Below, one piece after another: positions 30,045-51,108 of a stretch of 64,000 nt of DNA. This DNA comes from Planctomycetota bacterium (lineage in GTDB: Bacteria > Planctomycetota > JACQVV01 > JASMLP01). Positions within the stretch are counted from its first letter, which is position 1. Each line of letters begins with the position of its first letter. The notes under the pieces are model-generated. The model was not told the DNA's origin. It searched no databases and worked only from the letters and a program-made list of their open reading frames with translations. The DNA lies in contig JASMLP010000001.1 of assembly GCA_030748635.1 (NCBI GenBank), positions 77,986-141,985 on the forward strand. The letters are read 5' to 3'. Both the position numbers and the translations under genes were made by a program.

Positions 30045-33000
30045 TTATCGGTTCCTCGATCTCCCCAGTTGATCTAGCGCTTTTCGGGCCCACGTCTGCA
30101 CCTCTGGGAGACGGCGAGTTCCACGATTTTCCAGCACCGCGCGATAACTTTCCTCAGCCCCATCCGAGTCGCCATCCTCGATTTCTCGTTTCAATCCGAT
30201 CAGATAGGCGAAAAGGTCCGGATACGAACCTCGTACCTCCCCGGCGACTAAATCCTTTTCACTCCAGTGCTTGAAAAACCGATAGATCCTTCCGGTCGCT
30301 TCCTGACGATCTACCAGCGATTCGAAACGGGTATCGAGAACATTTCTGTAAACCTTGAAAGATCTCTGATCTCCGATTCGTAGGGAAAGATCGCAAAGAC
30401 GCAATACCGCCAACCACGTCCACGGATTGCTGAATTCTGCATGATGAAAAAGGATCGGCTTCAAAGTCGCTATCCGAAGCTCCGGATCATCCTGCTGATC
30501 CGCCAGCTCGAATTGGACCGCAGGGCCCTCACCGACCGCCACCCAGTACCCCTTCGCACCCACGAACACATAGCACTCTCTGCGTTCCCGAAAACCGATG
30601 GTGTCCAGATAACCTGGATGTAACGTTCCAACCTTCCACCAGCACTCGCGCGCCTCCTCTTCTCGACCCAGCGACCGAAGAGCAACCCCTCGATATAGGA
30701 AAGGCTCGGGCCAACCCGGGAGCAAATCACCCGCTCTCCCCAACTCCACCTCCGCCTGCCCCCATATTCCCAACCCCAACCAGGCCATGCCGGTATACAA
30801 ACACGCTCGAGGAAATAGAGAAGACGTTTCAGAAATCGGCTCGAGCAGATCGATCACTTTGCGAATCGACTCCCGACGCTGCTCCCGGCGTCGATCGGCC
30901 AGGCGAAGAAGGATCCAAGCTCGTTTCAGTCGGTCCGAATCCCCCCGAATCGGTTCGGCCAGATAGGCGGTGACCGTGTCGAACTGGCCCCTCTCCAAAG
31001 CAAGATCTATTCTCAGGTCCCGTTCGGCATCTCCGCCTTTCCCCAGAAAAACGCCAACTGTGGAAAGCACCTTGGAAGCCTCTTTCCACGCTCCGGTAAT
31101 CAAAAAGAATCGGACCCCAGCTCGAATCGCTATACGAATATCCTCGGCGGCAAATCGCCCCGAAGAAAAGTCTGCGAGAAGACGGGTTCGATCTCGATAT
31201 CGAGAAAACTGTTCCTCCAGCGGCCCCTGAATCTGTCGGAAAAAACGTTCGCTGAGCTGATCTACCAACGGTTTGAGAGGGGCTATCTCCACGACAACAT
31301 CCCGATTCGACACCTGCCCCCAGGCAGTATCACTCCGGTTCAAGTTGAGCATGATCAGAAGTCGTTCACGCAAAGCGAACATCAGGAAATGGTCAGAATC
31401 CCCCTGCGCTAACCGAAACAATCGATTGTCAAAACCCAGATTCTTTTCCACATCGACCTGATGCTGCAGCAATACCAGCGAACGCTCCATCTCCCCCAAA
31501 GCGTCCCTCAGTTTGCCCGAGTCGAAATAGGACAGCGACCTCAGGAGAGCCACCGCCCAGTTCCGAGGCAAGGCCTCCGCCAAGCGGTTCAAATCCTCCA
31601 GAGCTTCCCGAGCGTAACGCTCTCGATACACCCCCTGAGCACTTCCGGCGGCCAGCATCCCACCCATGACCCGAAGCATCCGAAGAGATTCCAGGCCTGG
31701 ATAATTTTCACACAGGTCTCGAAGCCGTACCAACGCCTCACGATCCTTGCCGGTATTGAGATCGACCAGCACTCGATTGAGTCCCGCTGACAGTTTTTGA
31801 TAGGGACGAACCTCACTCGTAACCACCCAGCGTTCTCGTAATTTCTGGTATTCACGCATGGCTCCCAACCAGGCTTCTGACTCTTCGAGGATCTTCCGAA
31901 CCCCAGCATGGTCGCCCCGATTCACCCCCAAATCGACTCGCTCTCTCACCTCCCGCAACAGATCCTGACGACTCTGATCCACACCTCGAATCGCCCCGGC
32001 ATGACTCGGTTCGATCGCAAGAGCCTTTCGATAGGCTTCGATCGCCTCTGCATAGCTCCCCTGCTCCCGCGCGTACCCAGCTTCCTGAAGACATTCGACC
32101 AGGCTCCGGGAGCGCGAAAATCGATTCCCAACCAGAATGCCGTACGTCATGGCCAACAGCAGAGCCAACAACAAAGAGGCGGACAATGTTCGATTTCGAC
32201 CGACCCATCGACCAAAAGCTTCCAAAGCCCCCGGGGGCCGGGCTTTGATCGGGTGACCGGCAAGAAACCGAGAAAGATCTTCACCCAGAGTCAAAGCGCT
32301 CCGATATCGGCGAGATGGATCCTTCTCCATGCAACGCAAACAGATCGTCTCGATATCCCTGGAAATCGTCGGATCGATTTTCCGTAAAGGTGGAGGAGTG
32401 GTGTGAAGCACTTGCTGACACACATCGAAAGGATCGTCTCCTCGGTAAGGTGCTTGACCGGACAACAGGTGATAGAGGGTCGCCCCCAGGCTATACACAT
32501 CACTGCGAGCCCCGATCGTCAGACGCTCCCCCCGAACCTGCTCCGGAGACATGTAAGGAGGTGTACCCATCGCCGTACCGGTCCGGGTTAACTGAACACT
32601 CGCCTCGAAATCCGCCGCGAGTCCGAAATCACTCAGAAAAGCGGTACCACAACGATCCAGCATGATATTCGAGGGCTTCACATCGCGGTGCACTATGCCG
32701 GCCCGATGAGCCGCATAGAGCGCGGAACTGATCTGCTGACAGATCCCAGCCGCCCGGCGAGGAGACAGAGGACCGGATTCCTGAACCTCCTGAGCTGCCG
32801 ACTTCCCTTCGATGAATTCCATCGAAAAATAGTGTCGACCGTCCACCTCACCCGTATCGTGAACCGCGACGATATTTGGATGATTCAGCTTCCCTGCCGC
32901 CTGAGCCTCTCGACGAAAACGCTGAATCAATTCCTCCGAAGCATGCTCCCCCGCGATAAGAACCTTGAGAGCCACCCTACGTCCCAGATCGACCTGACGA

Positions 33001-33920
33001 GCACGATAGACGATTCCCATCGCTCCCCGACCGACCTCTTCGAGCAGTTCATAATCGCCTAGCCGATCGAGAACGACCGATGGGGACTTGGACTCTGCGA
33101 CCTCCAACGATTCGATCGGTAAGACCGAGTCCGATCGCCATCCCGAACCTTCCTGAACACCCTCGGACTCATTCACCAGATCCCGAAGCGTGCCACGACA
33201 AAAATCCACGATTTCCGTGTCGAATCCGGAAGGAAGCGTTCGATCACAGATATCCGGTGGAGGAGCCTCCTGATCTTCTTCGAGAGCAGAGCGTCCTCGA
33301 CGACCGAAATATTTCGAAACCCACTGTTCGATCTGATCAATTTCCAGGCGGGAGCGATTTTGAAGCAACGCCGTCACCCGTTCGGTGGTATGAGTTCCGT
33401 ATCGGAAACGAAGGAGTTCAAAAACCACCTCCATATCGATCAACGACTGCTCGAGCCCGAGCCGACACAACCGCAGAAAAGGACTCTTCAGTTTATGTGG
33501 CGCAGACTCCCGAACCTGCTCGAAGGATTCGAGAATACGGGCTGAACGCTCCTCCAAGCCCCCCTTCTCAGCTGGAGACAATTTCGCTCGCTCCAGACAC
33601 CGATGACAAAGCCAAGCATTCTCTTCGGCCCGCGGGTGAGCCAAAAATCCGATGAAATCGGGTTCACTGAGATGGCCCGACACCAGCAGTAGGTGAATCT
33701 GCAGCATGGCCGGGTCGACCGGTGCGTAGGGCCACCCTTCCCTCAACAGGCGATCGGAGTGGGCGGTTCCTATTTGACCCTCTCGACTCAGAATCGAAGC
33801 GAGAGTCGTACCGTGATCCTGAGACCTTCGCCGGTCTCGAATCGTGGCCATCATGTCGTCCGCGGTCAACAGACCCCGCCACAGGATCGCACGACACAGA
33901 TAAAGATCTTGCAGGAACAT
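30045..33920 (-). CDS. Large Ser/Thr protein kinase with N-terminal GspE-like module and TPR-rich C-terminus
   Basis: This 1291-residue Hanks-type kinase is anchored by one membrane helix (about 580-597). Kinase landmarks are VGRGAMG (297-303), K319, HRDVKPSN (H411), DFG (431-433) and GTPPYMSPEQ, so it should be active. The first 60 residues (AILWRGLLTADDM and LASILSREGQIG) resemble a GspE/MshE N-terminal repeat. Residues 60-290 are unrecognised and helical. The roughly 690 residues after the helix are probably periplasmic and include TPR-like helical pairs such as ARNQGSYAEAIEAYRKAL-type units. No cognate phosphatase is adjacent. It converges with TatD, leaving 35 bp. Confidence 0.9.
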   Translation of the reverse strand: MFLQDLYLCRAILWRGLLTADDMMATIRDRRRSQDHGTTLASILSREGQIGTAHSDRLLREGWPYAPVDPAMLQIHLLLVSGHLSEPDFIGFLAHPRAEENAWLCHRCLERAKLSPAEKGGLEERSARILESFEQVRESAPHKLKSPFLRLCRLGLEQSLIDMEVVFELLRFRYGTHTTERVTALLQNRSRLEIDQIEQWVSKYFGRRGRSALEEDQEAPPPDICDRTLPSGFDTEIVDFCRGTLRDLVNESEGVQEGSGWRSDSVLPIESLEVAESKSPSVVLDRLGDYELLEEVGRGAMGIVYRARQVDLGRRVALKVLIAGEHASEELIQRFRREAQAAGKLNHPNIVAVHDTGEVDGRHYFSMEFIEGKSAAQEVQESGPLSPRRAAGICQQISSALYAAHRAGIVHRDVKPSNIMLDRCGTAFLSDFGLAADFEASVQLTRTGTAMGTPPYMSPEQVRGERLTIGARSDVYSLGATLYHLLSGQAPYRGDDPFDVCQQVLHTTPPPLRKIDPTISRDIETICLRCMEKDPSRRYRSALTLGEDLSRFLAGHPIKARPPGALEAFGRWVGRNRTLSASLLLALLLAMTYGILVGNRFSRSRSLVECLQEAGYAREQGSYAEAIEAYRKALAIEPSHAGAIRGVDQSRQDLLREVRERVDLGVNRGDHAGVRKILEESEAWLGAMREYQKLRERWVVTSEVRPYQKLSAGLNRVLVDLNTGKDREALVRLRDLCENYPGLESLRMLRVMGGMLAAGSAQGVYRERYAREALEDLNRLAEALPRNWAVALLRSLSYFDSGKLRDALGEMERSLVLLQHQVDVEKNLGFDNRLFRLAQGDSDHFLMFALRERLLIMLNLNRSDTAWGQVSNRDVVVEIAPLKPLVDQLSERFFRQIQGPLEEQFSRYRDRTRLLADFSSGRFAAEDIRIAIRAGVRFFLITGAWKEASKVLSTVGVFLGKGGDAERDLRIDLALERGQFDTVTAYLAEPIRGDSDRLKRAWILLRLADRRREQRRESIRKVIDLLEPISETSSLFPRACLYTGMAWLGLGIWGQAEVELGRAGDLLPGWPEPFLYRGVALRSLGREEEARECWWKVGTLHPGYLDTIGFRERRECYVFVGAKGYWVAVGEGPAVQFELADQQDDPELRIATLKPILFHHAEFSNPWTWLAVLRLCDLSLRIGDQRSFKVYRNVLDTRFESLVDRQEATGRIYRFFKHWSEKDLVAGEVRGSYPDLFAYLIGLKREIEDGDSDGAEESYRAVLENRGTRRLPEVQTWARKALDQLGRSRNR

Positions 33921-37692: not shown

Positions 37693-38431
37693 CACGACAC
37701 TCCTTTTCACGACCCCCGATGGAGGGCCTCATGGTTTCTTGTTCTTTTTGATAACGCTCCCAAAGACGAGGTCGCCTCGATCGAGTGCGTTCTTCTCGCT
37801 GCTGCTCTCGCCAGCGACAAATGGCACCGTGATCTCCGCTACGCAGGACTTCAGGAACTTCCATTCCACGGAAACGTGGAGGACGAGTGTAATGAGGATG
37901 ATCCAAAAGTCCATGGGAGAATGAATCCTCTATCGCACTTTCTGGGTCTCCAAGTACCCCGGGTAGGAGCCGAACAACACTATCGATGAGGATCATCGAA
38001 GGCAGTTCACCCCCCGTCAAAACGTAGTCTCCGACCGAGATTTCCTCGAAATCCAGCCCCTCCCTGATCCGCTCGTCAAATCCCTCGTAATGACCGCATA
38101 ACAGCAACAGATGATCCGATCGAGAAAGATCACGAGCACAAGCCTGGTCGTAGGGTCGGCCTTGAGGAGAGAGGAGAATCCGACGAACCGGTCGGTCGAC
38201 AGGAGAAGTCAACGATTCCACCGCTCGATAGACAGGCTCCGCGCTGAGCACCATTCCGGGACCGCCCCCATAGGGCCGATCGTCCACACTCCGATGACGA
38301 TCGGTTGAGTAATCTCGCAAATCGTGCACTTCGATCGACACCTTCTCAGCCCGCTGAGCCCGGCGCAAAATACTCTGTCCCAGCACCGCGCCGAACATCT
38401 CTGGAAAAAGGGTCAAGACATCGATCCGCAT
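37676..38431 (-). CDS. trmD: tRNA (guanine-N1)-methyltransferase TrmD
   Basis: TrmD methylates G37 of tRNAs and so prevents frameshifting. The SPOUT-knot sequences are present: YGGGPGMVLSAEPV, LLCGHYEGFDERI and SVGDYVLTGGELP. The start is the ATG at 38431 (251 aa), matching the canonical MRIDVLTLFPEMF beginning, with AAGGG 8 nt upstream. It overlaps ruvA by 19 nt and rplS by 17 nt. The usual partners rpsP and rimM are absent; ruvA takes their place. Confidence 0.97.
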   Translation of the reverse strand: MRIDVLTLFPEMFGAVLGQSILRRAQRAEKVSIEVHDLRDYSTDRHRSVDDRPYGGGPGMVLSAEPVYRAVESLTSPVDRPVRRILLSPQGRPYDQACARDLSRSDHLLLLCGHYEGFDERIREGLDFEEISVGDYVLTGGELPSMILIDSVVRLLPGVLGDPESAIEDSFSHGLLDHPHYTRPPRFRGMEVPEVLRSGDHGAICRWREQQREERTRSRRPRLWERYQKEQETMRPSIGGREKECRDGNSG

Positions 38432-39033
38432 CGCCTCAACCCTTCCCGAACCAACAACTCCAGCGTGGGAACTGTCGATTCCGACCACTCTTTTTGTACA
38501 GAAACGAGAACCCGGTCAGCATCCGACTCGCTGATTCCCAGAGCCACCATCGCCCGGATACCGTCCTCGTGCAGACTCGAAGTCGAGCTTCCAGATAACG
38601 ATTTCTCAGAGGAAGAGGAGTCTCCCCCCGCGTTCAGGATCAAACGTCCCGAAAGTTCGACAAGAATTCTCTCGGCAGTTTTTTTGCCAATCCCTTTGAT
38701 TCGAGTCAGAGAAGCCACATCACGATCCCGCAACGCGTCCACAAAACGATCCGGAGTCGTTCCTGAAAGAATCTGGATCGCAAGGCGTGGCCCCACTCCC
38801 TTGACTCCAATCAGCGCCCGAAAAAGCCTTCGCTCCACCTCCGTGGCAAACCCGTACAGAGCGACCTCATTTTCGCTCACCTGATGGTGCAACCAGACAA
38901 ACGCCTCTCCCCCTTCGGGCAGATCGCTATAAGTCGAAAGTGGAATCTGTACCGAATACCCCACACCCGCCGCTTCCACGACAAGCAATGTAGGCAAACG
39001 ACGAAAGATCTGTCCTCTCAGGAACTCGTACAT
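38413..39033 (-). CDS. ruvA: Holliday junction branch-migration protein RuvA
   Basis: RuvA binds Holliday junctions and recruits the RuvB motor. The 206-residue protein has the OB-fold start MYEFLRGQI, the helix-hairpin-helix segments GVKGVGPRLAIQIL and IKGIGKKTAERIL, a Ser-rich linker (about 140-155) and the C-terminal RuvB-binding domain. No ruvB or ruvC is adjacent. Instead it heads an operon with trmD, rplS, yraN and a ubiA-like gene, an arrangement I do not recognise as standard. Confidence 0.96.
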   Translation of the reverse strand: MYEFLRGQIFRRLPTLLVVEAAGVGYSVQIPLSTYSDLPEGGEAFVWLHHQVSENEVALYGFATEVERRLFRALIGVKGVGPRLAIQILSGTTPDRFVDALRDRDVASLTRIKGIGKKTAERILVELSGRLILNAGGDSSSSEKSLSGSSTSSLHEDGIRAMVALGISESDADRVLVSVQKEWSESTVPTLELLVREGLRRCGSMS

Positions 39034-39084: not shown

Positions 39085-40386
39085 TCAGCTACCATCCTTG
39101 AGTTTCAAACCGTGCTCGGCGAGCTTCTGCTTGATTTCATTCATGGATGTGGAACCGAAATTCTTGACTGAGAAAAAATCGGCTTCACTTCGAGAGACGA
39201 GATCTCCAACCGTTCGGATGTCTAGTGAGTTGAGGGCTTTACGGCTACGTATCGAGAATTCGATCTCGGTGATGGGCAAGCTCAAGGTCTGCTCCTGATC
39301 TCCATCAACAGGCGCGACAGCCACAGCCTCCATCTCGTCCTCGTGGAACATCCCCAGACGCAACCCCTTCTTGTTGAGAATCTCGCGAATTTCGAAGAGA
39401 CTCGTTTCCCCGAAATTCTTGTAATTCAGCAATTCCTGTTCGGATTTACGACACAGGTCGCCGAGGGTTCGAACATTCATCTTTGCGAGACAGTTCTTGC
39501 TTCGAACCGAAAGCTCAAAGTCGGTTATGGGGATCCGAAGGATCTGGTTGCGCTTATCGGCACGCCTTTCCTGATCTTCATCGAAAAACATCCCTAAACT
39601 TCCTACCGCATCCTTGCGAAAGAGAAGTGCGCGTTCGTGGTCAGGCACCGCTCGTAGAATTCTTTCATAACATTCGACGGCATCATCGTAGCGCCCGGCA
39701 TCCTCGTACAAAGCCCCCAGGTTGAGCAGCGTACCCACATGCCAGGCCTCTTGGTCCAGAATCGCCTCATAACCTGCCACCGCCCCCTCAGAATCACCCA
39801 TCAATTCTTTACGAAAAGCGACCCGAAACTGGGTCCCTGAGTGGTTCGAATCCAGACCAAGAGCACGGTCGTAACACTCCTGCGCCTCGGCATATTCACC
39901 TTCGCCCTCGTGCAGCATCCCCATCAAGTACTGAAAGTCAGCCTCTTCGGGATACTTCTCCTGAAAACTGTCGAGCAACTTTCTCGCCTGAGTCATCGAA
40001 CCCGTCGCGATCGTCGCTCGCACCTTGCCTACCAGTAAGGGAACATTGTTTCGATCGGACTTGGCGAGTTCGGTAAACAGCTCCAAAGCGTCTTCTGGCC
40101 GATTGGCTTCCAGGAGGCAGAAAGCGTAAAAAGATTGCGCGACCTGATCCGAGGACGCGGATTGCAAAATTTCGATCGCCTCAGGAAATCGATTCATCAG
40201 TGTCAAACCGATCCCGCGCTTGACTCGTTCGGGCATGCTGGACGCATCCAGTCCCGCTACAACATCCTCAAAAGCGCGAAACCTCGACTCGCTGGAAAAT
40301 ATCTCCTCCCGAAGAGCAAAGTATTCTTCGCGATCAAAATCTCTGGCAGTGTATTCATCGACGAGACTGGCAGTCAGGGTAGACAT
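39085..40386 (-). CDS. TPR protein with two RNA polymerase alpha-CTD-like domains
   Basis: This 433-residue soluble protein has TPR units over roughly residues 60-255 (for example PEEADFQYLMGMLHEGEGEYAEA and AWHVGTLLNLGALYEDAGRYDDA). Two helix-hairpin-helix domains homologous to the C-terminal domain of the RNA polymerase alpha subunit follow, at about 285-346 and 369-431. The first keeps the residues that contact UP-element DNA in E. coli alpha (R295 and N298, equivalent to R265 and N268). The second keeps R380 but has Lys at the Asn position. This architecture is known to me mainly from Planctomycetes. GGAGG precedes the ATG. A transcription-related role is inference. Confidence 0.88.
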   Translation of the reverse strand: MSTLTASLVDEYTARDFDREEYFALREEIFSSESRFRAFEDVVAGLDASSMPERVKRGIGLTLMNRFPEAIEILQSASSDQVAQSFYAFCLLEANRPEDALELFTELAKSDRNNVPLLVGKVRATIATGSMTQARKLLDSFQEKYPEEADFQYLMGMLHEGEGEYAEAQECYDRALGLDSNHSGTQFRVAFRKELMGDSEGAVAGYEAILDQEAWHVGTLLNLGALYEDAGRYDDAVECYERILRAVPDHERALLFRKDAVGSLGMFFDEDQERRADKRNQILRIPITDFELSVRSKNCLAKMNVRTLGDLCRKSEQELLNYKNFGETSLFEIREILNKKGLRLGMFHEDEMEAVAVAPVDGDQEQTLSLPITEIEFSIRSRKALNSLDIRTVGDLVSRSEADFFSVKNFGSTSMNEIKQKLAEHGLKLKDGS

Positions 40387-40529: not shown

Positions 40530-41714
40530 TCAGTCCGCGTCGGTACTCGAAAACCGAAATGAATGTCTCTGGGTGGACCACCACCTCCTCCACAACTCGG
40601 ATTCCAGCCCTAAATCCTTGCCGGTCAAGCGAGTAAGCAAACCGTATCCATAAAATCGGTGGAATGCGTTGGCATGATCCAGCCACTCGATGGCGTGATC
40701 GATCGCCCGAGGGGATTTCTGCATTGCCAGAGCCCGCAGCGCAGCTCCAGCCACACGAGCATCGGAATCTCCCACCCGAGATTCGAGCGCTTCCATCGGT
40801 AGTGAGCGGCCGTGACGCCCCAGAGCCAGCAAAAGAGCTCGAACCCGATCGGAATCGCCCCCTTTCTCCATCTGCTCCAGAAGCCAGACCTGATCTCCCA
40901 GACGCGCCAAAGACTCCGCCGAAGCCAACCGGACGTAATACACGGGATCCTCTACACGAGACCGTAACAACTCCCGGCTTTCCCGATCCCCCAACTCCCC
41001 CAGAGCATGAGCCGCCGTGGCCACCAGAACCCAGTTCTTGGAGTCACGGAGCCCCAACGCCTTACGGGCCAACGGACGCGCAGCTTCCGGATCCAGACGA
41101 ACCAGGCTCCTCAGCAACGCGGCCTGAACATACACCCGATCCTTGTTCTCCGGCGCTTCGACCATTTCCCGCAAACGTTTGGAATGCTTCGGCTTGCCGA
41201 TCGCACCCAAGACGTGAGCAGCTGTACCACGAACCGAATCATCCGGATCTCGAGTCGCCCGCACCACCAGAGCCAGATCGGAGGTCAGTTTCAACCGCTC
41301 CAGAGTGCGTAAAGCGACCCGTCTCACCGAAGGGTCGATGTCCTGGCAAGCCCTTCGAAGCAAGCGGTGAACATCAGTATCCTCTGCAGTGGATAAACCT
41401 CGCAGCGCGGAAATCCGAACCGCTGGATCCGGCGACAGCATCGCCTCCAGAGAAACCGATCCATCCTCCGATCCGGGCGGAACCAACCAATCGTAAAGAG
41501 CGACCCAGATGTCGTAAAAAATGAACTTGAGTGGGTAATAGACAAGAGCCCCGATGGCGATAAACGGAGCCTTCATGACATTCAAAACCTTTTGCCAGGT
41601 CGTGAGGTCGGCCTCGAAAGCCCCGGACTCCTGAGCGAAAACGGGATTCCAGCACCCCATCACTGCGACCATCACGAGCAGAAACCGGATAACCCAATTT
41701 TTTTTTCGATCCAC
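40530..41714 (-). CDS. HEAT-repeat protein with signal sequence
   Basis: This 394-residue protein has an N-terminal signal or anchor (VIRFLLVMVAVMGCW, to about residue 27) and a second hydrophobic stretch at about 55-75. Roughly eight HEAT repeats with DPDDSVRGTAAHVLGAIG-type units follow. Such repeats make protein-binding superhelices; no catalytic motif is seen. It probably resides in the periplasm or at the membrane as a scaffold. I prefer the GTG at 41714 because GGAGG lies 7 nt upstream; a TTG two codons earlier overlaps the CCA-transferase stop codon. Confidence 0.8.
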   Translation of the reverse strand: MDRKKNWVIRFLLVMVAVMGCWNPVFAQESGAFEADLTTWQKVLNVMKAPFIAIGALVYYPLKFIFYDIWVALYDWLVPPGSEDGSVSLEAMLSPDPAVRISALRGLSTAEDTDVHRLLRRACQDIDPSVRRVALRTLERLKLTSDLALVVRATRDPDDSVRGTAAHVLGAIGKPKHSKRLREMVEAPENKDRVYVQAALLRSLVRLDPEAARPLARKALGLRDSKNWVLVATAAHALGELGDRESRELLRSRVEDPVYYVRLASAESLARLGDQVWLLEQMEKGGDSDRVRALLLALGRHGRSLPMEALESRVGDSDARVAGAALRALAMQKSPRAIDHAIEWLDHANAFHRFYGYGLLTRLTGKDLGLESELWRRWWSTQRHSFRFSSTDAD

Positions 41715-41716
41715 GC

Positions 41717-42952
41717 TCAATCCTCCCGCGACCGAATCCAGGAAATCGCTTCTTCTCGGGAATAGAGATTCCCCTCGAGCACCCGATCCTCCACCGCATC
41801 CAAGATTTCTCGATACCGCGGACCCGGTGGGATTCCCATGCCGGCCAGATCTTCTCCATTCACGGGCACCGAAGGGAACAATCCCACTCCATCCGCTTCA
41901 AACCGAGCCCGATCTCGCTGACAACACTTCAATGACGCATCCAACGGGGACCTGGGCTCTTTCTGTTGTTCCGAATCCAATCGGAACAGTTGCATGACCT
42001 TTTCGATCTCATCTTGTCTCAGAAAACGCTTCTTTTGCGCCAGAGTCAACTCCCTATATCTACACAACATCCTCTCCTGAGAGACCATCCAGACCACCTC
42101 CTGAATCACCCTCGTGCTACGACGCAAAGATTTCAATGCCCGCTCCACGTTCGCGCCGATCCGTTCCAGATCCAAAACAAGTGCCCCCAACCCCACCGCC
42201 AGATCTGTCCCAGGCTCCATCTCTTCCAGACGCCCAAGGGTCTGCTCTAGGGAAGAAGAGGAAAGTTCACCCATTGATGGGAGGATTTCCTTTAACAGTC
42301 CGGTTTCGGAAAGGAGTCGTCCCCCCAACCCGGGACGAGGTCCAGTGAGGATTCGCTCCAATTCATCGCCGATCCGCTCCCGACTGATATTTTTCAGACA
42401 AGCGGCTTCTTCCACCATGGCTCTTCGAGTGTCTTTTTCGATCCGAAAATCGAGTTGCGCCGCAAACCGAACCGCTCGAAGAAGACGCAGATGATCCTCC
42501 CGGAATCGTCCACAAGGATCCCCAATCGTCCTGACAAGACAATTTCGAAGATCGTCCCCTCCCCCCACATGGTCGAACACTTCACCCGAATGAGGATCCA
42601 TGAAAAGACCGTTGATGGTGAAATCCCTACGTTTCGCATCCTCGATCTCGGTTCCAAACGAAACCGAGTCTGGGCGTCGCCCATCTCCATACTCCCCGTC
42701 TCGTCGAAAAGTCGCGACCTCGTAGGATCCACCGGCTTCCAGAACCACCACAATGCCAAACTTACGCCCCACCGCATGAGTGCGAGAGAACAACGACTCC
42801 ACAGCTTGGGGTGGAGCGCTGGTGACAATATCAAAATCTTTCGGTTCTCGTCCCAGCAGAGAATCCCGAACACACCCTCCACAGAAAAGAGCCCGATACC
42901 CGGCACGGACCAATCGGTCGATAATCGATACTGCAACCTGAAAATCAGCCAT
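41717..42952 (-). CDS. CCA-adding enzyme / poly(A) polymerase family nucleotidyltransferase
   Basis: This 411-residue class II tRNA nucleotidyltransferase-type enzyme has the catalytic motif GGCVRDSLLGREPKDFDIV (D39 and D41). The RRDFTINGLFMD motif and the RNA-binding region RFREDHLRLLRAVRFAAQL follow. It could add CCA to tRNA 3' ends or poly(A) tails; the sequence alone does not separate these. It sits between an orphan CbiE-like gene (12 bp upstream) and a HEAT-repeat gene (downstream, overlapping or abutting), so the three probably share a transcript. Confidence 0.92.
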   Translation of the reverse strand: MADFQVAVSIIDRLVRAGYRALFCGGCVRDSLLGREPKDFDIVTSAPPQAVESLFSRTHAVGRKFGIVVVLEAGGSYEVATFRRDGEYGDGRRPDSVSFGTEIEDAKRRDFTINGLFMDPHSGEVFDHVGGGDDLRNCLVRTIGDPCGRFREDHLRLLRAVRFAAQLDFRIEKDTRRAMVEEAACLKNISRERIGDELERILTGPRPGLGGRLLSETGLLKEILPSMGELSSSSLEQTLGRLEEMEPGTDLAVGLGALVLDLERIGANVERALKSLRRSTRVIQEVVWMVSQERMLCRYRELTLAQKKRFLRQDEIEKVMQLFRLDSEQQKEPRSPLDASLKCCQRDRARFEADGVGLFPSVPVNGEDLAGMGIPPGPRYREILDAVEDRVLEGNLYSREEAISWIRSRED

Positions 42953-43718: not shown

Positions 43719-44702
43719 CTATCGTTTTTCCTCCAGCACCCGCGCGTCGAGCCTCCAGACATCGAACCAGCGAAAGACCTCTCCCTCAAACCCCTCGTCG
43801 ATCAACATCTTCGAAAGCGTAGATGCCGTCCCCGTATCTACCAGAACCCCCAGTGTCACCGGAAGCGATGAATTTGAAATCGTGGACTCCATCGCCTTGA
43901 AAATAGCGCGGGCAGACACGCCTTTCCCTGGACCTCCGAAGTTACCCAGATCTCGCTCAATCCCCTCCAGAAGCCGATCGATCTCGAGAAACTGAGCTTG
44001 AGGCCAGGAACGGATCGCGCCCTGCAGAAGGACTCGAACTCTGTGGGTAAATTCTCGGAGCCCTTCAATCGGTGATCCACTCGAATGAACCAGACTTCGA
44101 GCGTATTGATGCTTCAAGAAGTCCTGAAATCGCTCGACCGGGAAACGGACAAGCATCGGCTTCCCGATCGCTTTCATCTTCTCGAGTGCCCTCGAAATCC
44201 GACCCATCGGATCATCCGACATCCCTTGCAAGTCAGCTTCCTGACCCTCCTTCAGGCAAACACGCCAGGGGAGATCGGACAAAGCTTCGAGTGCTGTCAA
44301 AGGAGTCAACCCGAGAACCGAGCCGACCATTTCAAAAAGCAGATCTTCGGTCTTTCGATTCCCTCCGCCAGGAGCCGCTCCTACATGAAAGGCGATGTCC
44401 ACCCCCTCAAGCGCTCTTTTGATCTCCCAGACCGTTTCGAGATCGACGAGACGAGGCATACCGAGTAACAGAACCTCCCCCCCTCCGGAAGGAACTCGAA
44501 ATCGGGTCACAGAACCCTCGAGGTCTCCAGCCACATTGTCATAACCGTCATACCGCAGATGAGACCCGGGCCCATATTGAAAGTTCGTGGATCGCCCCTC
44601 AGTCTCGACCTGGCTTCGATATTGCACCGAACACCCCATAAGACCCCAGCATAGAGACAGGATCAACCAGCGAAATCGTCCAGTCAAAACAGGCCGAAAC
44701 AT
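43719..44702 (-). CDS. Hypothetical lipoprotein
   Basis: This protein of about 327 residues has a lipoprotein signal peptide ending in GLMGC (Cys24). I do not recognise a family. It has an alpha/beta look, with recurring strand-helix units such as EVLLLGMPRLVDLETVWEIKRAL and PVTLGVLVDTGTASTLSKMLIDEGF. This could reflect a Rossmann-like periplasmic domain, possibly CsgG-like. The ATG at 44702 has GAGG 6 nt upstream; a GTG four codons earlier is less likely. It is divergent from the TPR gene across a region with an inverted repeat. Confidence 0.65.
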   Translation of the reverse strand: MFRPVLTGRFRWLILSLCWGLMGCSVQYRSQVETEGRSTNFQYGPGSHLRYDGYDNVAGDLEGSVTRFRVPSGGGEVLLLGMPRLVDLETVWEIKRALEGVDIAFHVGAAPGGGNRKTEDLLFEMVGSVLGLTPLTALEALSDLPWRVCLKEGQEADLQGMSDDPMGRISRALEKMKAIGKPMLVRFPVERFQDFLKHQYARSLVHSSGSPIEGLREFTHRVRVLLQGAIRSWPQAQFLEIDRLLEGIERDLGNFGGPGKGVSARAIFKAMESTISNSSLPVTLGVLVDTGTASTLSKMLIDEGFEGEVFRWFDVWRLDARVLEEKR

Positions 44703-44735
44703 AGAATTCCTCACATAAGCATTTTGAAAAATGGC

Positions 44736-44869: not shown

Positions 44870-45928
44870 ATGCTTTCTCGCACTCCGCAATTCTTACTTT
44901 CCCTCCCTCTACTTCTGGGGGTCAGCTTCTCCATCCTTGCCCAGGACGCTCCGCCCGTTGAACTCAAGCTCATCGGCAACACGACGACCCCTTACTCCGG
45001 AGTCATCCTGGACGCTAACGAGAAGCAAGTGGAGATCCGCCTCGTTCGAGGAGGCAGGCTAACCCTTGAAACCGATCAACTCGACCCGACCAGTCTTCAG
45101 CATGTGTATCAGTACCTGCTAAAAAACTGGGACCTCGAAAATCCGGCCCAACGCATTCGGCTGGGTGACTTTTGCAAATCCATAAATCTCTTCTCATTTG
45201 CAGAAACTCACTATCGAGCTGTTCTGTCCTTAAAATCAGATTCCGACCCAACCGAACAGATCTCCCAAAAACTCAAAATCCTCGAACAGGCCCACCTCCA
45301 GCATTTACTTCAAACCGCTCTCGACGCCCTTTCCGCGGGCCGCCAACTGGAAGCCGTTCGCTATCTGCGACGAATCTCCCAGAAAGCCCCAGCGAGCCCA
45401 GAAGGACAAGCCGCTCAGAAAATCCTGGCCGGAATCGAGGTTCGCCCCTCCGAAGACGAGGAAAAGCCTGCGGCCCCGGACCCGGTTTCCCCCTCTCCTT
45501 CTCGATGGACCCGAGCGATAAAGCAACTGGTCCTCCCCCCGGTCCAGAAAGCTCACACTCTCCACCGCCAAGGCCTCAACCTTGAAGGGAAGGGGCAAGC
45601 GACTCGAGGTGCCCAATGCTACAAACAAGCCGTGGACTCCCTGGATCTGGCCGAGAAAAGAGCAAAGCTCGTAGAAAGGCACTGCCACAAAAAAGCGGAC
45701 CTTCCTGACGCCGAGGAGCAGCAATCCTACCAGAACCTACAAACCGATATACGTCGATTGCGAATCCAACTCTACCTGGCACTCGCGAATCATCACGCCG
45801 CGGCACGACGCCTGGAACGAGCTCGCGAATTCACTAACCTCGCCCTTTCGGTCGACCCGGACGAACCGAGCGCTCTAACACTGAGAGACCGGATCACAGA
45901 CGAGATCCTTCGACGTGGCGTTCGTTAA
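44870..45928 (+). CDS. Exported TPR-like protein
   Basis: This 352-residue protein has a clear signal peptide (LLSLPLLLGVSFSILAQ). A short beta-rich segment (about 28-75, SGVILDANEKQVEIRLVRGG) resembles an SH3-like strand set. Helical TPR-like pairs follow, for example LFSFAETHYRAVL and RLERAREFTNLALSVDPDEPSAL, separated by a Pro/Ser-rich linker near 190-210. No catalytic residues are evident. It is probably a periplasmic scaffold. It opens the long plus-strand block that includes two membrane kinases with similar TPR-like extracytoplasmic parts, but a functional link is inference. Confidence 0.72.
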   Translation: MLSRTPQFLLSLPLLLGVSFSILAQDAPPVELKLIGNTTTPYSGVILDANEKQVEIRLVRGGRLTLETDQLDPTSLQHVYQYLLKNWDLENPAQRIRLGDFCKSINLFSFAETHYRAVLSLKSDSDPTEQISQKLKILEQAHLQHLLQTALDALSAGRQLEAVRYLRRISQKAPASPEGQAAQKILAGIEVRPSEDEEKPAAPDPVSPSPSRWTRAIKQLVLPPVQKAHTLHRQGLNLEGKGQATRGAQCYKQAVDSLDLAEKRAKLVERHCHKKADLPDAEEQQSYQNLQTDIRRLRIQLYLALANHHAAARRLERAREFTNLALSVDPDEPSALTLRDRITDEILRRGVR

Positions 45929-46325: not shown

Positions 46326-46739
46326 GTGCAACCCATTCATTTTGCCCTCGGTGTTGTGTTCTTCGGAAGCCTCCCCATCCTGGGCTCCACTCACTTCATC
46401 CTGCAGTGGTGCAGCCATGACCTTCCCAGCGCTAGATCGGCATGGAGAAACACACTCCTGGGCGCTGCAATCCCCTTCTCCTTCTCTGGTTGGTGGATCT
46501 TTCAAAAGGTTCCTTTTTTCGACTCCATCGACGGCCTGTTACAATTTCATCCTCTGGCTAGTAGTCTTCTCTACATTTCGTTCCTGGTTTTGATCTGCAC
46601 TCTTCACTACGCGGCGAGAAACCCGTTTCGCCAGGGCATCCCGACCCGATGTCCCGCTTGTAACAACCGACGTCACCTCGACACGCCACTGTGCATCCGC
46701 TGTGGCATCTTCCTTCTTCCCAAATCTCCGAAACCATAA
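46326..46739 (+). CDS. Small membrane protein with C-terminal zinc ribbon
   Basis: This 137-residue protein has three likely membrane segments (residues 5-25, 45-62 and 80-98). A cytoplasmic-looking C-terminal zinc ribbon with CPAC and CIRC pairs follows. I do not recognise a family. It starts with GTG and ends 5 bp before the ATG of the kinase, which itself carries a zinc ribbon, so the two genes are almost certainly cotranscribed. The role is unknown; a membrane sensor or assembly factor for the kinase would be speculation. Confidence 0.65.
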   Translation: MQPIHFALGVVFFGSLPILGSTHFILQWCSHDLPSARSAWRNTLLGAAIPFSFSGWWIFQKVPFFDSIDGLLQFHPLASSLLYISFLVLICTLHYAARNPFRQGIPTRCPACNNRRHLDTPLCIRCGIFLLPKSPKP

Positions 46740-46744
46740 AGCTC

Positions 46745-49700
46745 ATGGGCGAATCAACCGACAACCGCTTTGGTGAAATTGCCGTTCAGAAAGGATGGGT
46801 CCAGCCGGCCCAGATCGAAAACGCCCTCCAGCAGATCCAGTCGAACACCTCCCCCCGCAAAATCCGCCTCGGGGAAGTTCTTGTTCAGGAGGAGATACTC
46901 TCCCCGAATCAAGTGGTTTCAATACTCGAAGAACAGCAAAAATGCCTCATCTTCTGCAACGGATGTGGAGTCCGATACAACTTCCCACGATCCATGCAGG
47001 TCGAAAAGCAAAAATGCCCCCAGTGTCAGGACGCCCTTCGCCCCGCGACCACCGTTCGCCTCCTGGAGGACGTGGTGGTTTCGGGCGATTTCCAGAAGCG
47101 CCCCCCACAAAAAGCGAGTAAAAAACCACAAACGATTCCGGGGACCATGGCCCAAACCCGTGTCCTCGCCGACCCGAATTTCGCGAAAACAGCACTCGCC
47201 ACCAAACCTCCCGACACCTTGATCGGCCGATCTCTCGGTCGAGCCCGACTTCGCCAACTGATCGGACAAGGGGGAATGGGGTCGGTCTATATTGCACTGC
47301 ACGAAGCGCTCGACCGAGATATCGTGGTGAAAGTTCTCCCCCCGGAACTCAGCCGGGATCCAAACCTGGTGAAACGTTTTCGAGTCGAAGCCCAGTCTTG
47401 CGCCCACCTCAACCATGAGAACATCGTCCACATATATGATGTTGGCTCCACAGAAGACGGTGTCCACTACATCTCGATGGAATTCATCGACGGCATCACC
47501 CTCCAACGTCGTCTGATCGATTCCGGAGGACAACTACGTATTCCTGAAGCCCTCGAGCTTATTCAGCAAATAGGACGAGGTCTCGAGGCGGCGCATCGAG
47601 AGAAAATTATCCATCGAGATATCAAGCCCGAAAACATCATGATCACCCACGAAGGCAAGGTGAAAGTGATGGATTTCGGCCTGGCCAAGAGCCTCACCCG
47701 GGACAGCGGCTTGACGGCCAGCGGCCAGATCCTCGGAACCCCCTACTTCATGAGCCCAGAGCAGTGTGACGGACGCAAGGTCGACCATCGCAGCGATATC
47801 TACAGCCTTGGGGTCGTCCTTTACTACCTACTAACCGGTCAACGCCCTTTCACCGGCCCATCTCCCGCATCGATCATCGTCAAGCACTTGAACGAAGCCC
47901 CGAAGCCCCCGAGCCGACTCCTGAATGATCTGCCTCGTCCACTCGAAAAGATCATCCTACGAGCCATGGCCAAAACGGTAGAAAAACGCTACCAAACCAT
48001 GGGAGAGTTTCTCGAAGATCTCACCCGCTTCGAAAGCGGCGAACTCGACAGTAAAGTCGACCTTGCGGTGGTCGGTGGGTATGCCAAAAAAGTCGGCCCT
48101 GCGGGATGGATTACAGGCGCCGCCCTGATCGCCACGGTACTCCTGTTCCTGGCGATGATCGGCTCGAACCCCGAGTCCCCTCCGGACGAACCGCCCGAGA
48201 CCGCATCCAACCCCCCAACCCCCTCCGTGATCCCACCCCCCGAAACAACAGATCCCCCCAAGGCAGAGTCCAAAACGGAACGAGTACTCAACATACTCGA
48301 CGAGGTGAACGCCAATCTCGGCAACGGCGCCAAGGTCGATAGAATCCGAAGACACATCGGGGGAATTCGACTCGACGTCATGAACGGCAATCTGAATGAA
48401 GCCCATGCGAACTTGCGCGAACTCCGAGAACGAGCCCTGCAACTAAAGCACCTCCCTAGATCACCCCAACTCCGAGAGAAAATCGAAGAATTGATCGATT
48501 TGCTGGCTGCCCAGACTCCGAATCTTGCCCCCCAACCATCTGTCGACACGATCTCTCAAGCTCAGAACGCGTACGAAAAGGGAGATTATGATGCCGCTCT
48601 AAATCTCTTCAAAAAAGCCCGGAAGCAAGCACAAGACGCAAAAGATCCTGATCAGGAAAAATTGGCCTTCCAAGGGACCACGAACTGCCTACTGAACAAG
48701 ACCAAAGCGCGAGCCAAGCTGGCGTGGGAAGTGATCCAAGACGGTGAAATCGAGAAAGCCGCAGGTATCTTGCGGGAAATCACCATTGAGTTCGAAGACA
48801 TCGACCCTCAAAGATCTGAGTCTATCCGTCAGGTTGCCGACAACGACCTATATTCTTATCAGAATTTACATCGGAATCTCCAAGCAGAAGACCTGCTACA
48901 AAATCCACCCGAACAGATCGAAGCGCAACTCCGTGCAAAATTCTCTCCCATCGCCTGGTACTACCACTGGAGAATTCGAAAATCAAAAGATGGCGTGGGC
49001 TCAGCCCTCGACCAGATGAAAGAATCTCGAGTACAAAGTCTCGATCAGCGTTTCGTCGACGCATTCCGCGTGAAGTCCTGGTGCTCGAACCGATCTGGTC
49101 CGCGCGATCAATCATCCTCCTCGACTCAGAAAAAAACGCTACTAGATGCCTACTTCAAAGGGGAAAAAGTCACGTTAAGTTCGAGACAGCTCTTTTCCGA
49201 CGGTTTTTTAAATCTCGGCGGAAAATCCAAGGAACTTATAGACCATGTGATCGATCGCCCTCCACCGACCGGTTTCCCCATTTCCTTTCCATTCCTCGGC
49301 GACCAACTCCGCGTCCAGAAACTCGAGGGACGAATCCGCATCCAGACCGTCCTGTTCATTCCGCCTCACGAGCGCATGCATGGATCTTTTGAAAATATCC
49401 CGTTTCTCTGGCTCTTGCTCGATGCCGACGCGGCCACCATTCCGGCCATTCGTTTTCGAGTCATTAGCGACAAGAAGAACCGGGACACTCGGGTTTTTGA
49501 ATTCCAGTTGATCGCCGTGACCAAAAAAAGCCCCCGCCTATTGACCCGATCGACAATGAACACGATGAAATCTACTCTCTCGGGCCTAGACTTCGAGAAT
49601 GAACTGGTGATCCAAACCCAACGATTTGATTCTTCGAACCGCCCTCTGGGTCCCCATCGGCGCCCCCAAGAAACCTCGCTATACATGGAATTTAATTTTG

Positions 49701-49921
49701 ACGAAAACCGGATGAAAGCTTTCGTCGCCATCCGAGGTTTAGATGGGGTCTCAGATCAAAAACGTGAACTCTCATTAAGCGACGACTCAAACAACCAAAC
49801 CCTTTTAGATCTCCATAAAAACCGAACCCAACTCCAGGCGATCCTTATCCCCTCTCCTTCAAGAGGACGGCCCCTTTTCCTCTTACGGGAATTACAGATC
49901 TCCGGGACTCCTTGCAAATGA
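46745..49921 (+). CDS. Membrane Ser/Thr protein kinase with N-terminal GspE/MshE-like module and zinc ribbon
   Basis: This 1058-residue Hanks-type kinase begins with a GspE/MshE-N-like repeat (RFGEIAVQKGWVQPAQIENAL, then RLGEVLVQEEILSPNQVVSIL). A zinc ribbon follows (C71, C74, C91, C94). The kinase domain is complete: GQGGMG (174-179), K196, HRDIKPEN (H290), DFG (310-312) and GTPYFMSPEQ. A single membrane helix is at about 454-472. The extracytoplasmic part has a Pro-rich linker, TPR-like helices (near YEKGDYDAALNLFKKA) and a final beta-rich domain of about 250 residues. I start at the ATG at 46745, which directly precedes the conserved module. Confidence 0.9.
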   Translation: MGESTDNRFGEIAVQKGWVQPAQIENALQQIQSNTSPRKIRLGEVLVQEEILSPNQVVSILEEQQKCLIFCNGCGVRYNFPRSMQVEKQKCPQCQDALRPATTVRLLEDVVVSGDFQKRPPQKASKKPQTIPGTMAQTRVLADPNFAKTALATKPPDTLIGRSLGRARLRQLIGQGGMGSVYIALHEALDRDIVVKVLPPELSRDPNLVKRFRVEAQSCAHLNHENIVHIYDVGSTEDGVHYISMEFIDGITLQRRLIDSGGQLRIPEALELIQQIGRGLEAAHREKIIHRDIKPENIMITHEGKVKVMDFGLAKSLTRDSGLTASGQILGTPYFMSPEQCDGRKVDHRSDIYSLGVVLYYLLTGQRPFTGPSPASIIVKHLNEAPKPPSRLLNDLPRPLEKIILRAMAKTVEKRYQTMGEFLEDLTRFESGELDSKVDLAVVGGYAKKVGPAGWITGAALIATVLLFLAMIGSNPESPPDEPPETASNPPTPSVIPPPETTDPPKAESKTERVLNILDEVNANLGNGAKVDRIRRHIGGIRLDVMNGNLNEAHANLRELRERALQLKHLPRSPQLREKIEELIDLLAAQTPNLAPQPSVDTISQAQNAYEKGDYDAALNLFKKARKQAQDAKDPDQEKLAFQGTTNCLLNKTKARAKLAWEVIQDGEIEKAAGILREITIEFEDIDPQRSESIRQVADNDLYSYQNLHRNLQAEDLLQNPPEQIEAQLRAKFSPIAWYYHWRIRKSKDGVGSALDQMKESRVQSLDQRFVDAFRVKSWCSNRSGPRDQSSSSTQKKTLLDAYFKGEKVTLSSRQLFSDGFLNLGGKSKELIDHVIDRPPPTGFPISFPFLGDQLRVQKLEGRIRIQTVLFIPPHERMHGSFENIPFLWLLLDADAATIPAIRFRVISDKKNRDTRVFEFQLIAVTKKSPRLLTRSTMNTMKSTLSGLDFENELVIQTQRFDSSNRPLGPHRRPQETSLYMEFNFDENRMKAFVAIRGLDGVSDQKRELSLSDDSNNQTLLDLHKNRTQLQAILIPSPSRGRPLFLLRELQISGTPCK

Positions 49922-49972
49922 TGATGGAGGGAACTACTTGAAACCCCCTTTTCTTCCAGTAGGCTTAGAGCA

Positions 49973-50545
49973 ATGACCGATCCAGGTGATTCCAAACTCG
50001 ATAGCCTCGAAACTGTCGAGGTCAAACGAATCGCCGGCCCGATTGACGGGACCGGCGCCGCGCTCTTTCTCGGGAACGAAACCAAAACTTTCGTCATATT
50101 TGTCGGACTCTTCGAAGCCAGCGCGATAGTCAAAGAGATGCACGAACAAAAAAGTGCGCGTCCCATGACTCACGACCTCATGGGATCTGTCCTCCTCGGT
50201 TTCGATATCGAGGTGAAACGGGTGATCATCTCCGACATCATCGATAACACTTTTTGCGCCACCCTCATTCTCGAACAAGGAGTCGACGGCGAGGACTCCG
50301 AGTGGATCGGCAAGCGAAACGAGGTCCGAATCGACTCGCGCGCCAGCGACTCGATCATCATCGCCCTCAAATCCAAATGCCCGATTCAAGTCAGCCAAGA
50401 GGTCTTTGACCAGGTCGATGACATCTCTACGAAGATCGACATCGAAACCGGCGCTTCCCCGGATCAGGCCCACGAGCTGGATCTGGGCGAGGTCGATTTC
50501 GATCTCCGCCTCGATGAAGACGAAACCGATGAACAGGACGACTGA
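49973..50545 (+). CDS. Bifunctional nuclease family (DUF151) protein
   Basis: This 190-residue protein has the DUF151 core over residues 15-145. Landmarks are LGNETKTFVIFVGLFEASAI, RPMTHDLMGSVLLGF, RVIISDIIDNTFCATLIL and RIDSRASDSIIIALK. Plant members were reported to have nuclease activity; bacterial roles are poorly defined. A C-terminal acidic tail (about 165-190) is variable. The PTS IIA gene starts 3 nt after its stop codon, so the two are tightly coupled. It lies 51 bp after the kinase gene. Confidence 0.87.
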   Translation: MTDPGDSKLDSLETVEVKRIAGPIDGTGAALFLGNETKTFVIFVGLFEASAIVKEMHEQKSARPMTHDLMGSVLLGFDIEVKRVIISDIIDNTFCATLILEQGVDGEDSEWIGKRNEVRIDSRASDSIIIALKSKCPIQVSQEVFDQVDDISTKIDIETGASPDQAHELDLGEVDFDLRLDEDETDEQDD

Positions 50546-50548
50546 TCC

Positions 50549-51028
50549 GTGAATTTCTCGAAACTGGTCAAACCCAACCAGGTCGTTTTTCTGGATGTTT
50601 CTACCAAAAACGATGCGTTGCGTCGGGTGTCCGAAGTTCTGGCTGAAACCCCTGAGGTTGAAGATCTGGAAATCCTCTACGAAGCCATGCTCAAGAGGGA
50701 ATCGATCCTCTCCACGGGTGTAGGTCTTGGACTGGCCGTTCCTCACGCCAAAATGGATTCTATCCGGGAGTTTGTCGTCGCTATCGGTGTCCTCCGGACC
50801 CCCGTCGAATACGATTCGATCGATGGTAATCCGGTACAAATCATCGTCATGGTGGGCGCTCCAGAGCAACGCCAAGAGGAGTATCTCCGTCTCCTGGCAC
50901 AAGTTATGGAAATTCTTCGCATAGAGGAGAATCGCCAACGTATTCTCGAGGCTCCAACCCCAGAAACGGTGGTCGAAGTCTTCCGAGGAGTCCAGGCGCC
51001 CTCCCCGGAAAAAGCCCCTTCCACCTAA
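50549..51028 (+). CDS. PTS IIA-like nitrogen/fructose regulatory protein (PtsN type)
   Basis: This 159-residue EIIA type 2 domain has the phosphoacceptor His66 in GLAVPHAKMDSI, the usual context for fructose/mannitol EIIA and PtsN. Sugar-specific EIIB and EIIC parts are absent, as is HPr in this window, so a regulatory role is more likely than sugar uptake. GTG is the start codon, 3 nt after the DUF151 gene. A short Pro-rich tail follows the domain. Confidence 0.88.
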   Translation: MNFSKLVKPNQVVFLDVSTKNDALRRVSEVLAETPEVEDLEILYEAMLKRESILSTGVGLGLAVPHAKMDSIREFVVAIGVLRTPVEYDSIDGNPVQIIVMVGAPEQRQEEYLRLLAQVMEILRIEENRQRILEAPTPETVVEVFRGVQAPSPEKAPST

Positions 51029-51108
51029 AGACTCTGATGCCTCCTCTTGACTGCATCCCACACCCTAGGAATAATACGGCCTTCCATACTCGGTGCCCGG
51101 GGATTCCA

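Follow-up and report, generated by a model that had tools for sequence, protein, structure and literature searches.

The gene under study lies within the window, a 64,000-nucleotide stretch of a Planctomycetota genome, at positions 39085-40386 of the minus strand, and is complete, encoding a protein of 433 amino acids whose family alignment comprises 69 sequences; we refer to it below as the TPR-2xCTD protein. The open reading frame starts with ATG, preceded by a ribosome-binding-like motif (GGAGGGG), and a promoter scan returned chance-level results. The minus-strand order in the window is cca, HEAT-repeat protein gene, TPR-2xCTD gene, ruvA, trmD, rplS, and yraN, with ruvA (38413-39033, minus strand; TIGR00084, 180 bits) as the next gene downstream after a gap of 51 bp. 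The HEAT-repeat protein encoded directly upstream (40530-41720, minus strand; HEAT_2, 106 bits) was not found as a direct neighbor in the other genomes examined. The window also encodes large serine/threonine-kinase proteins (46691-49921, plus strand; 30045-33920, minus strand, the latter with TPR matches), as well as three proteins giving no Pfam match at E <= 1e-5 (43719-44714, minus strand, 331 aa; 44870-45928, plus strand, 352 aa; 49934-51061, minus strand, 375 aa).

In bacterial RNA polymerase, the alpha-CTD is the tail classically known for contacting DNA and activators. The sequence-only reading of this locus had described a TPR protein ending in two alpha-CTD-like domains (hereafter D1 and D2), and profile searches bear this out: PF03118 (RNA_pol_A_CTD) matches two separate stretches of the protein with 139 bits (E = 4e-41; curated cut-off 23.8 bits), D2 by itself scores 70.9 bits (E = 7e-20), and, among many TPR families matched, TPR_19 (77 bits) and TPR_2 (66 bits) score above their Pfam cut-offs. 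The Pfam scores rule out a chance similarity to the alpha-CTD. Exactly three PF03118 matches above cut-off occur in the source genome, one in the true rpoA and two here, which confirms that description; the true rpoA resides on a different contig (C49) and is distinct from the TPR-2xCTD gene. NCBIfam rpoA models align with the protein at their CTD positions only and below cut-off (TIGR02027, 131 versus 227.8 bits), and in these comparisons the alpha-NTD, which serves dimerization and assembly with the beta and beta-prime subunits, was not encountered. A truncated or duplicated rpoA is ruled out by the lack of the alpha-NTD together with the presence of rpoA elsewhere in the genome, and, since the alpha-NTD is absent, the protein cannot replace alpha in the polymerase.

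As modeled by AlphaFold, and with the domains themselves identified by profile, the chain runs from a TPR solenoid (residues 1-250; 39637-40386, here and below on the minus strand) into a long connecting helix (residues 251-283; 39538-39636) with conserved R252, A253, D259, M266, and D269, which leads directly into D1 (residues 284-346; 39349-39537) and is followed by a variable acidic linker (residues 347-369; 39280-39348) and D2 (residues 370-432; 39091-39279). The model, built from 69 aligned sequences, has a mean pLDDT of 92.7, reaching about 97 in both CTDs and falling below 50 at linker residues 356-361; its pTM of 0.69 means that the individual parts are more reliable than their arrangement relative to one another. 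The linker is predicted to be flexible; its length varies across the family from 16 to 76 aa, with a mean identity of 15%. The D1-D2 pair, when folded with no alignment as input, yielded an uninterpretable model (pLDDT 39).

The predicted superhelix (residues 1-265) is shared with solved TPR solenoids, including the OGT TPR domain (1w3b) and TPR subunits of APC/C, with VIA-align Z values of about 16-21 (top 20.8). These matches cover the repeat part only, and none of the entries in the lists is titled as carrying alpha-CTDs; the lists of the PDB fold searches were filled by TPR proteins. The TPR-2xCTD protein differs from RpoA in lacking the alpha-NTD and in carrying two CTDs per chain. Among proteins with alpha-CTD-like domains outside RpoA, the NCBIfam models PRK07758 (39 versus 115 bits) and BREX PglW (28 versus 990 bits) match the CTD part weakly, far under their curated cut-offs, and their architectures are different. 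Our literature search found no paper describing the family; the domains are nothing new, and annotations of the genes presumably exist in databases.

The TPR-2xCTD gene is a single-copy, near-universal gene of Planctomycetota. Among 392 genomes sampled evenly across the phylum, 369 encode the protein, with one match each (E <= 1e-30), and so do 214 of the 217 good genomes; for G031, G142, and G300, the good genomes in which no match is listed, gaps or divergence are likely, since their families contain other members that do encode the protein. Its earlier designation as a lineage marker thus holds within Planctomycetota. PF03118 matches were present in all 39 genomes tested and usually numbered three, one in RpoA and two in the TPR-2xCTD protein. 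A single-sequence scan of genome contigs reached only one planctomycete MAG, whose relative is 49% identical, and a scan of viral contigs found no relative. Matches in plasmid and phage records were partial and fell on the alpha-CTD part; many of them carry an RpoA annotation, and 80% coverage of the query was reached in none of the plasmid records.

Conservation is distributed unevenly along the protein. Mean pairwise identity across the family rises from 22% in the N-terminal half and 36% in the C-terminal half of the TPR part to 43% in the long helix and 69% in D1, with 48% in D2. D1 is the most conserved part of the protein and surpasses even RpoA's own alpha-CTD: in 29 matched genomes, mean pairwise identity is 72% for D1, 54% for the RpoA-CTD, and 51% for D2. 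At the eight DNA-determinant positions the mean column entropy is 0.16 bits in D1 (1.03 elsewhere), compared with 0.34 in the RpoA-CTD and 0.78 in D2. The alignment thus places the putative DNA-contact positions of D1 under very strong constraint, part of which may be structural in cause. In a domain tree, all D1 sequences group together (support 0.99), as do D1 and nearly all D2 (support 0.82), which suggests that an alpha-CTD was acquired in a single transfer and then duplicated within the protein, prior to the radiation of the phylum; the tree rests on short domains, and two D2 sequences are placed elsewhere.

DNA binding by the alpha-CTD of Escherichia coli depends critically on R265 and N268, which touch the backbone and the minor groove (PMC11434276, PMC3828302). 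The retention of this arginine and asparagine in the first domain, noted when the sequence was first read, is confirmed, as R295 and N298 of D1 correspond to them, and N324, G326, S329, and E332 correspond to N294, G296, S299, and E302. These further positions we take to belong to the DNA determinant as well. D2 retains five residues of the 265 determinant (R380, N409, G411, S414, and E417), so that both domains share R265, N294, G296, S299, and E302 with RpoA and D1 alone also has N268; the N268 position of D2 is K here and K/R in most homologs. Six columns are invariant across the 69 homologs (N222, R295, L300, N324, G326, and E332), and four of these are the E. coli DNA-contact positions 265, 294, 296, and 302. 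Both D1 and D2 carry a positive mean net charge (+1.3 and +1.2, respectively), compared with -0.1 for the RpoA-CTD.

Two positions of D1 depart from the E. coli pattern. K298 is replaced by T, but the same T occurs in 28 of 29 RpoAs of the phylum, which rules out reading the change as a loss of DNA binding. At position 297, which adjoins the DNA-contact loop, 73 of 77 D1 domains have E, and 23 of 29 RpoAs have K/R; this glutamate, particular to D1, suggests an altered rather than a copied function, and unchanged UP-element binding is not to be assumed. It is the main caution in what follows, as it could mean weaker DNA binding or a protein interface. The acidic positions D259 (kept in 68 of 77 D1 domains) and E261 (71 of 77) are better conserved than in the phylum's RpoA.

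We consider there to be an even chance that this planctomycete core protein works as a DNA-binding adaptor, most likely with a partner in the transcription machinery. In the manner of RNA polymerase's own alpha-CTD, D1, aided by D2, would grip A+T-rich DNA at its minor groove, and it would also present alpha-CTD-like docking surfaces. The TPR groove would dock another protein, with RNA polymerase, sigma, and regulators as the likeliest candidates, and the whole would in effect provide a trans-acting alpha-CTD. The AlphaFold model did not identify the partner; a transcriptional one is more likely than a recombinational one because the modules are alpha-CTDs with the conserved acids at 259 and 261 plus a DNA surface. 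The extreme conservation of the D1 DNA-contact positions is consistent with the original suggestion that such a protein could compete with, or extend, alpha-CTD function. In favor of the adaptor count the two strong PF03118 domains on a TPR scaffold, the confident model, the invariance and low entropy of the D1 DNA-contact columns, the T at 298 shared with the phylum's RpoA, the higher identity of D1 than of the RpoA-CTD, the positive charge of both domains, and the presence of the gene in nearly all good genomes. Speaking against it are E297 in D1, K/R at the N268 position of most D2 domains, and the identity of the conserved neighbor, which is ruvA and not a transcription gene.

This neighborhood is the reason why we keep as the main alternative, though an unlikely one, an accessory role at Holliday junctions or in recombination, in which the alpha-CTDs would hold DNA and the TPR part would recruit or regulate RuvA or RuvAB. 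Downstream of the gene, at a distance of up to about 300 bp and in the same orientation, ruvA is present in 40 of 77 genomes; since the sequence at certain of these 77 loci ends too early for a decision, this is a lower bound. Where the downstream sequence extends for 5 kb or more (38 loci), 19 loci have ruvA and lack ruvB, five have both, and 14 have neither, and the source genome has ruvA beside the gene but ruvB and ruvC on contigs other than this one; the bond of the TPR-2xCTD gene to ruvA thus often seems longer-lived than that between ruvA and ruvB. Many lineages, however, keep the protein without ruvA linkage, so that support from linkage for a role in the RuvABC pathway is partial, and operon neighbors are not required to interact. 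In two genomes the gene is followed by ruvA-ruvB-spoIID-tgt-yajC, several loci without ruvA retain the tgt/yajC part, and some unlinked genes continue with spoIID/tgt/yajC; the gene apparently became part of an old ruvAB-tgt-yajC cluster, from which its position may be inherited. We also know of no alpha-CTD that binds junctions, which counts against such a role.

The alpha-CTDs might instead be purely protein-interaction modules that do not bind DNA, acting, for instance, as a decoy for sigma region 4 or activators or as an assembly hub. The alpha-CTD of RNA polymerase also contacts sigma, and it contacts activators as well (PMC8321222); the conservation of D259 and E261 and the charge reversal at 297 likewise speak for protein contacts. 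Nevertheless, it is the DNA-contact positions that are constrained most strongly, R265 and E302 being invariant among D1 sequences, and both domains are more basic than the RpoA-CTD, which leaves this explanation doubtful and, in our estimate, on a par with a recombination role. Still less probable is a general nucleoid- or chromosome-organizing protein whose two CTDs would bridge DNA: tandem putative minor-groove binders on a flexible linker of 16-76 aa, encoded by a single-copy, near-universal gene, would suit it, but the present results indicate neither abundance nor bridging, and the presence of a TPR solenoid points to a specific partner.

For Planctomycetota, which seem to retain a second, polymerase-independent set of DNA- and activator-binding modules, such a core protein would imply a different organization of promoter or activator recognition, or of some other DNA transaction. 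The implication comes from the two alpha-CTDs on a TPR scaffold in a protein found throughout the phylum, and from the tighter constraint on D1 than on RpoA's alpha-CTD. A bolder version, in which the protein is an essential, phylum-wide, trans-acting alpha-CTD factor and a standing part of transcription, reading promoter DNA and activators beside or instead of the RpoA CTD, appears rather unlikely. The main text of the paper reporting the genome-wide transposon essentiality map of Planctopirus limnophila mentions neither TPR nor RuvA (PMC10632474); with such a map at hand, the role of the TPR-2xCTD protein could be tested directly in P. limnophila.

A few further alpha-CTD matches were observed in the phylum. 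Small open reading frames of 155 aa (G166:C1:4088706-4088888) and 137 aa (G120:C4:337088-337279) carry alpha-CTDs distinct from RpoA and from the TPR-2xCTD family, and alpha-CTD-like matches within open frames of about 1,400-1,500 aa (G016:C152:129220-129378 and G120:C4:1479137-1479304) possibly belong to PglW-like proteins.
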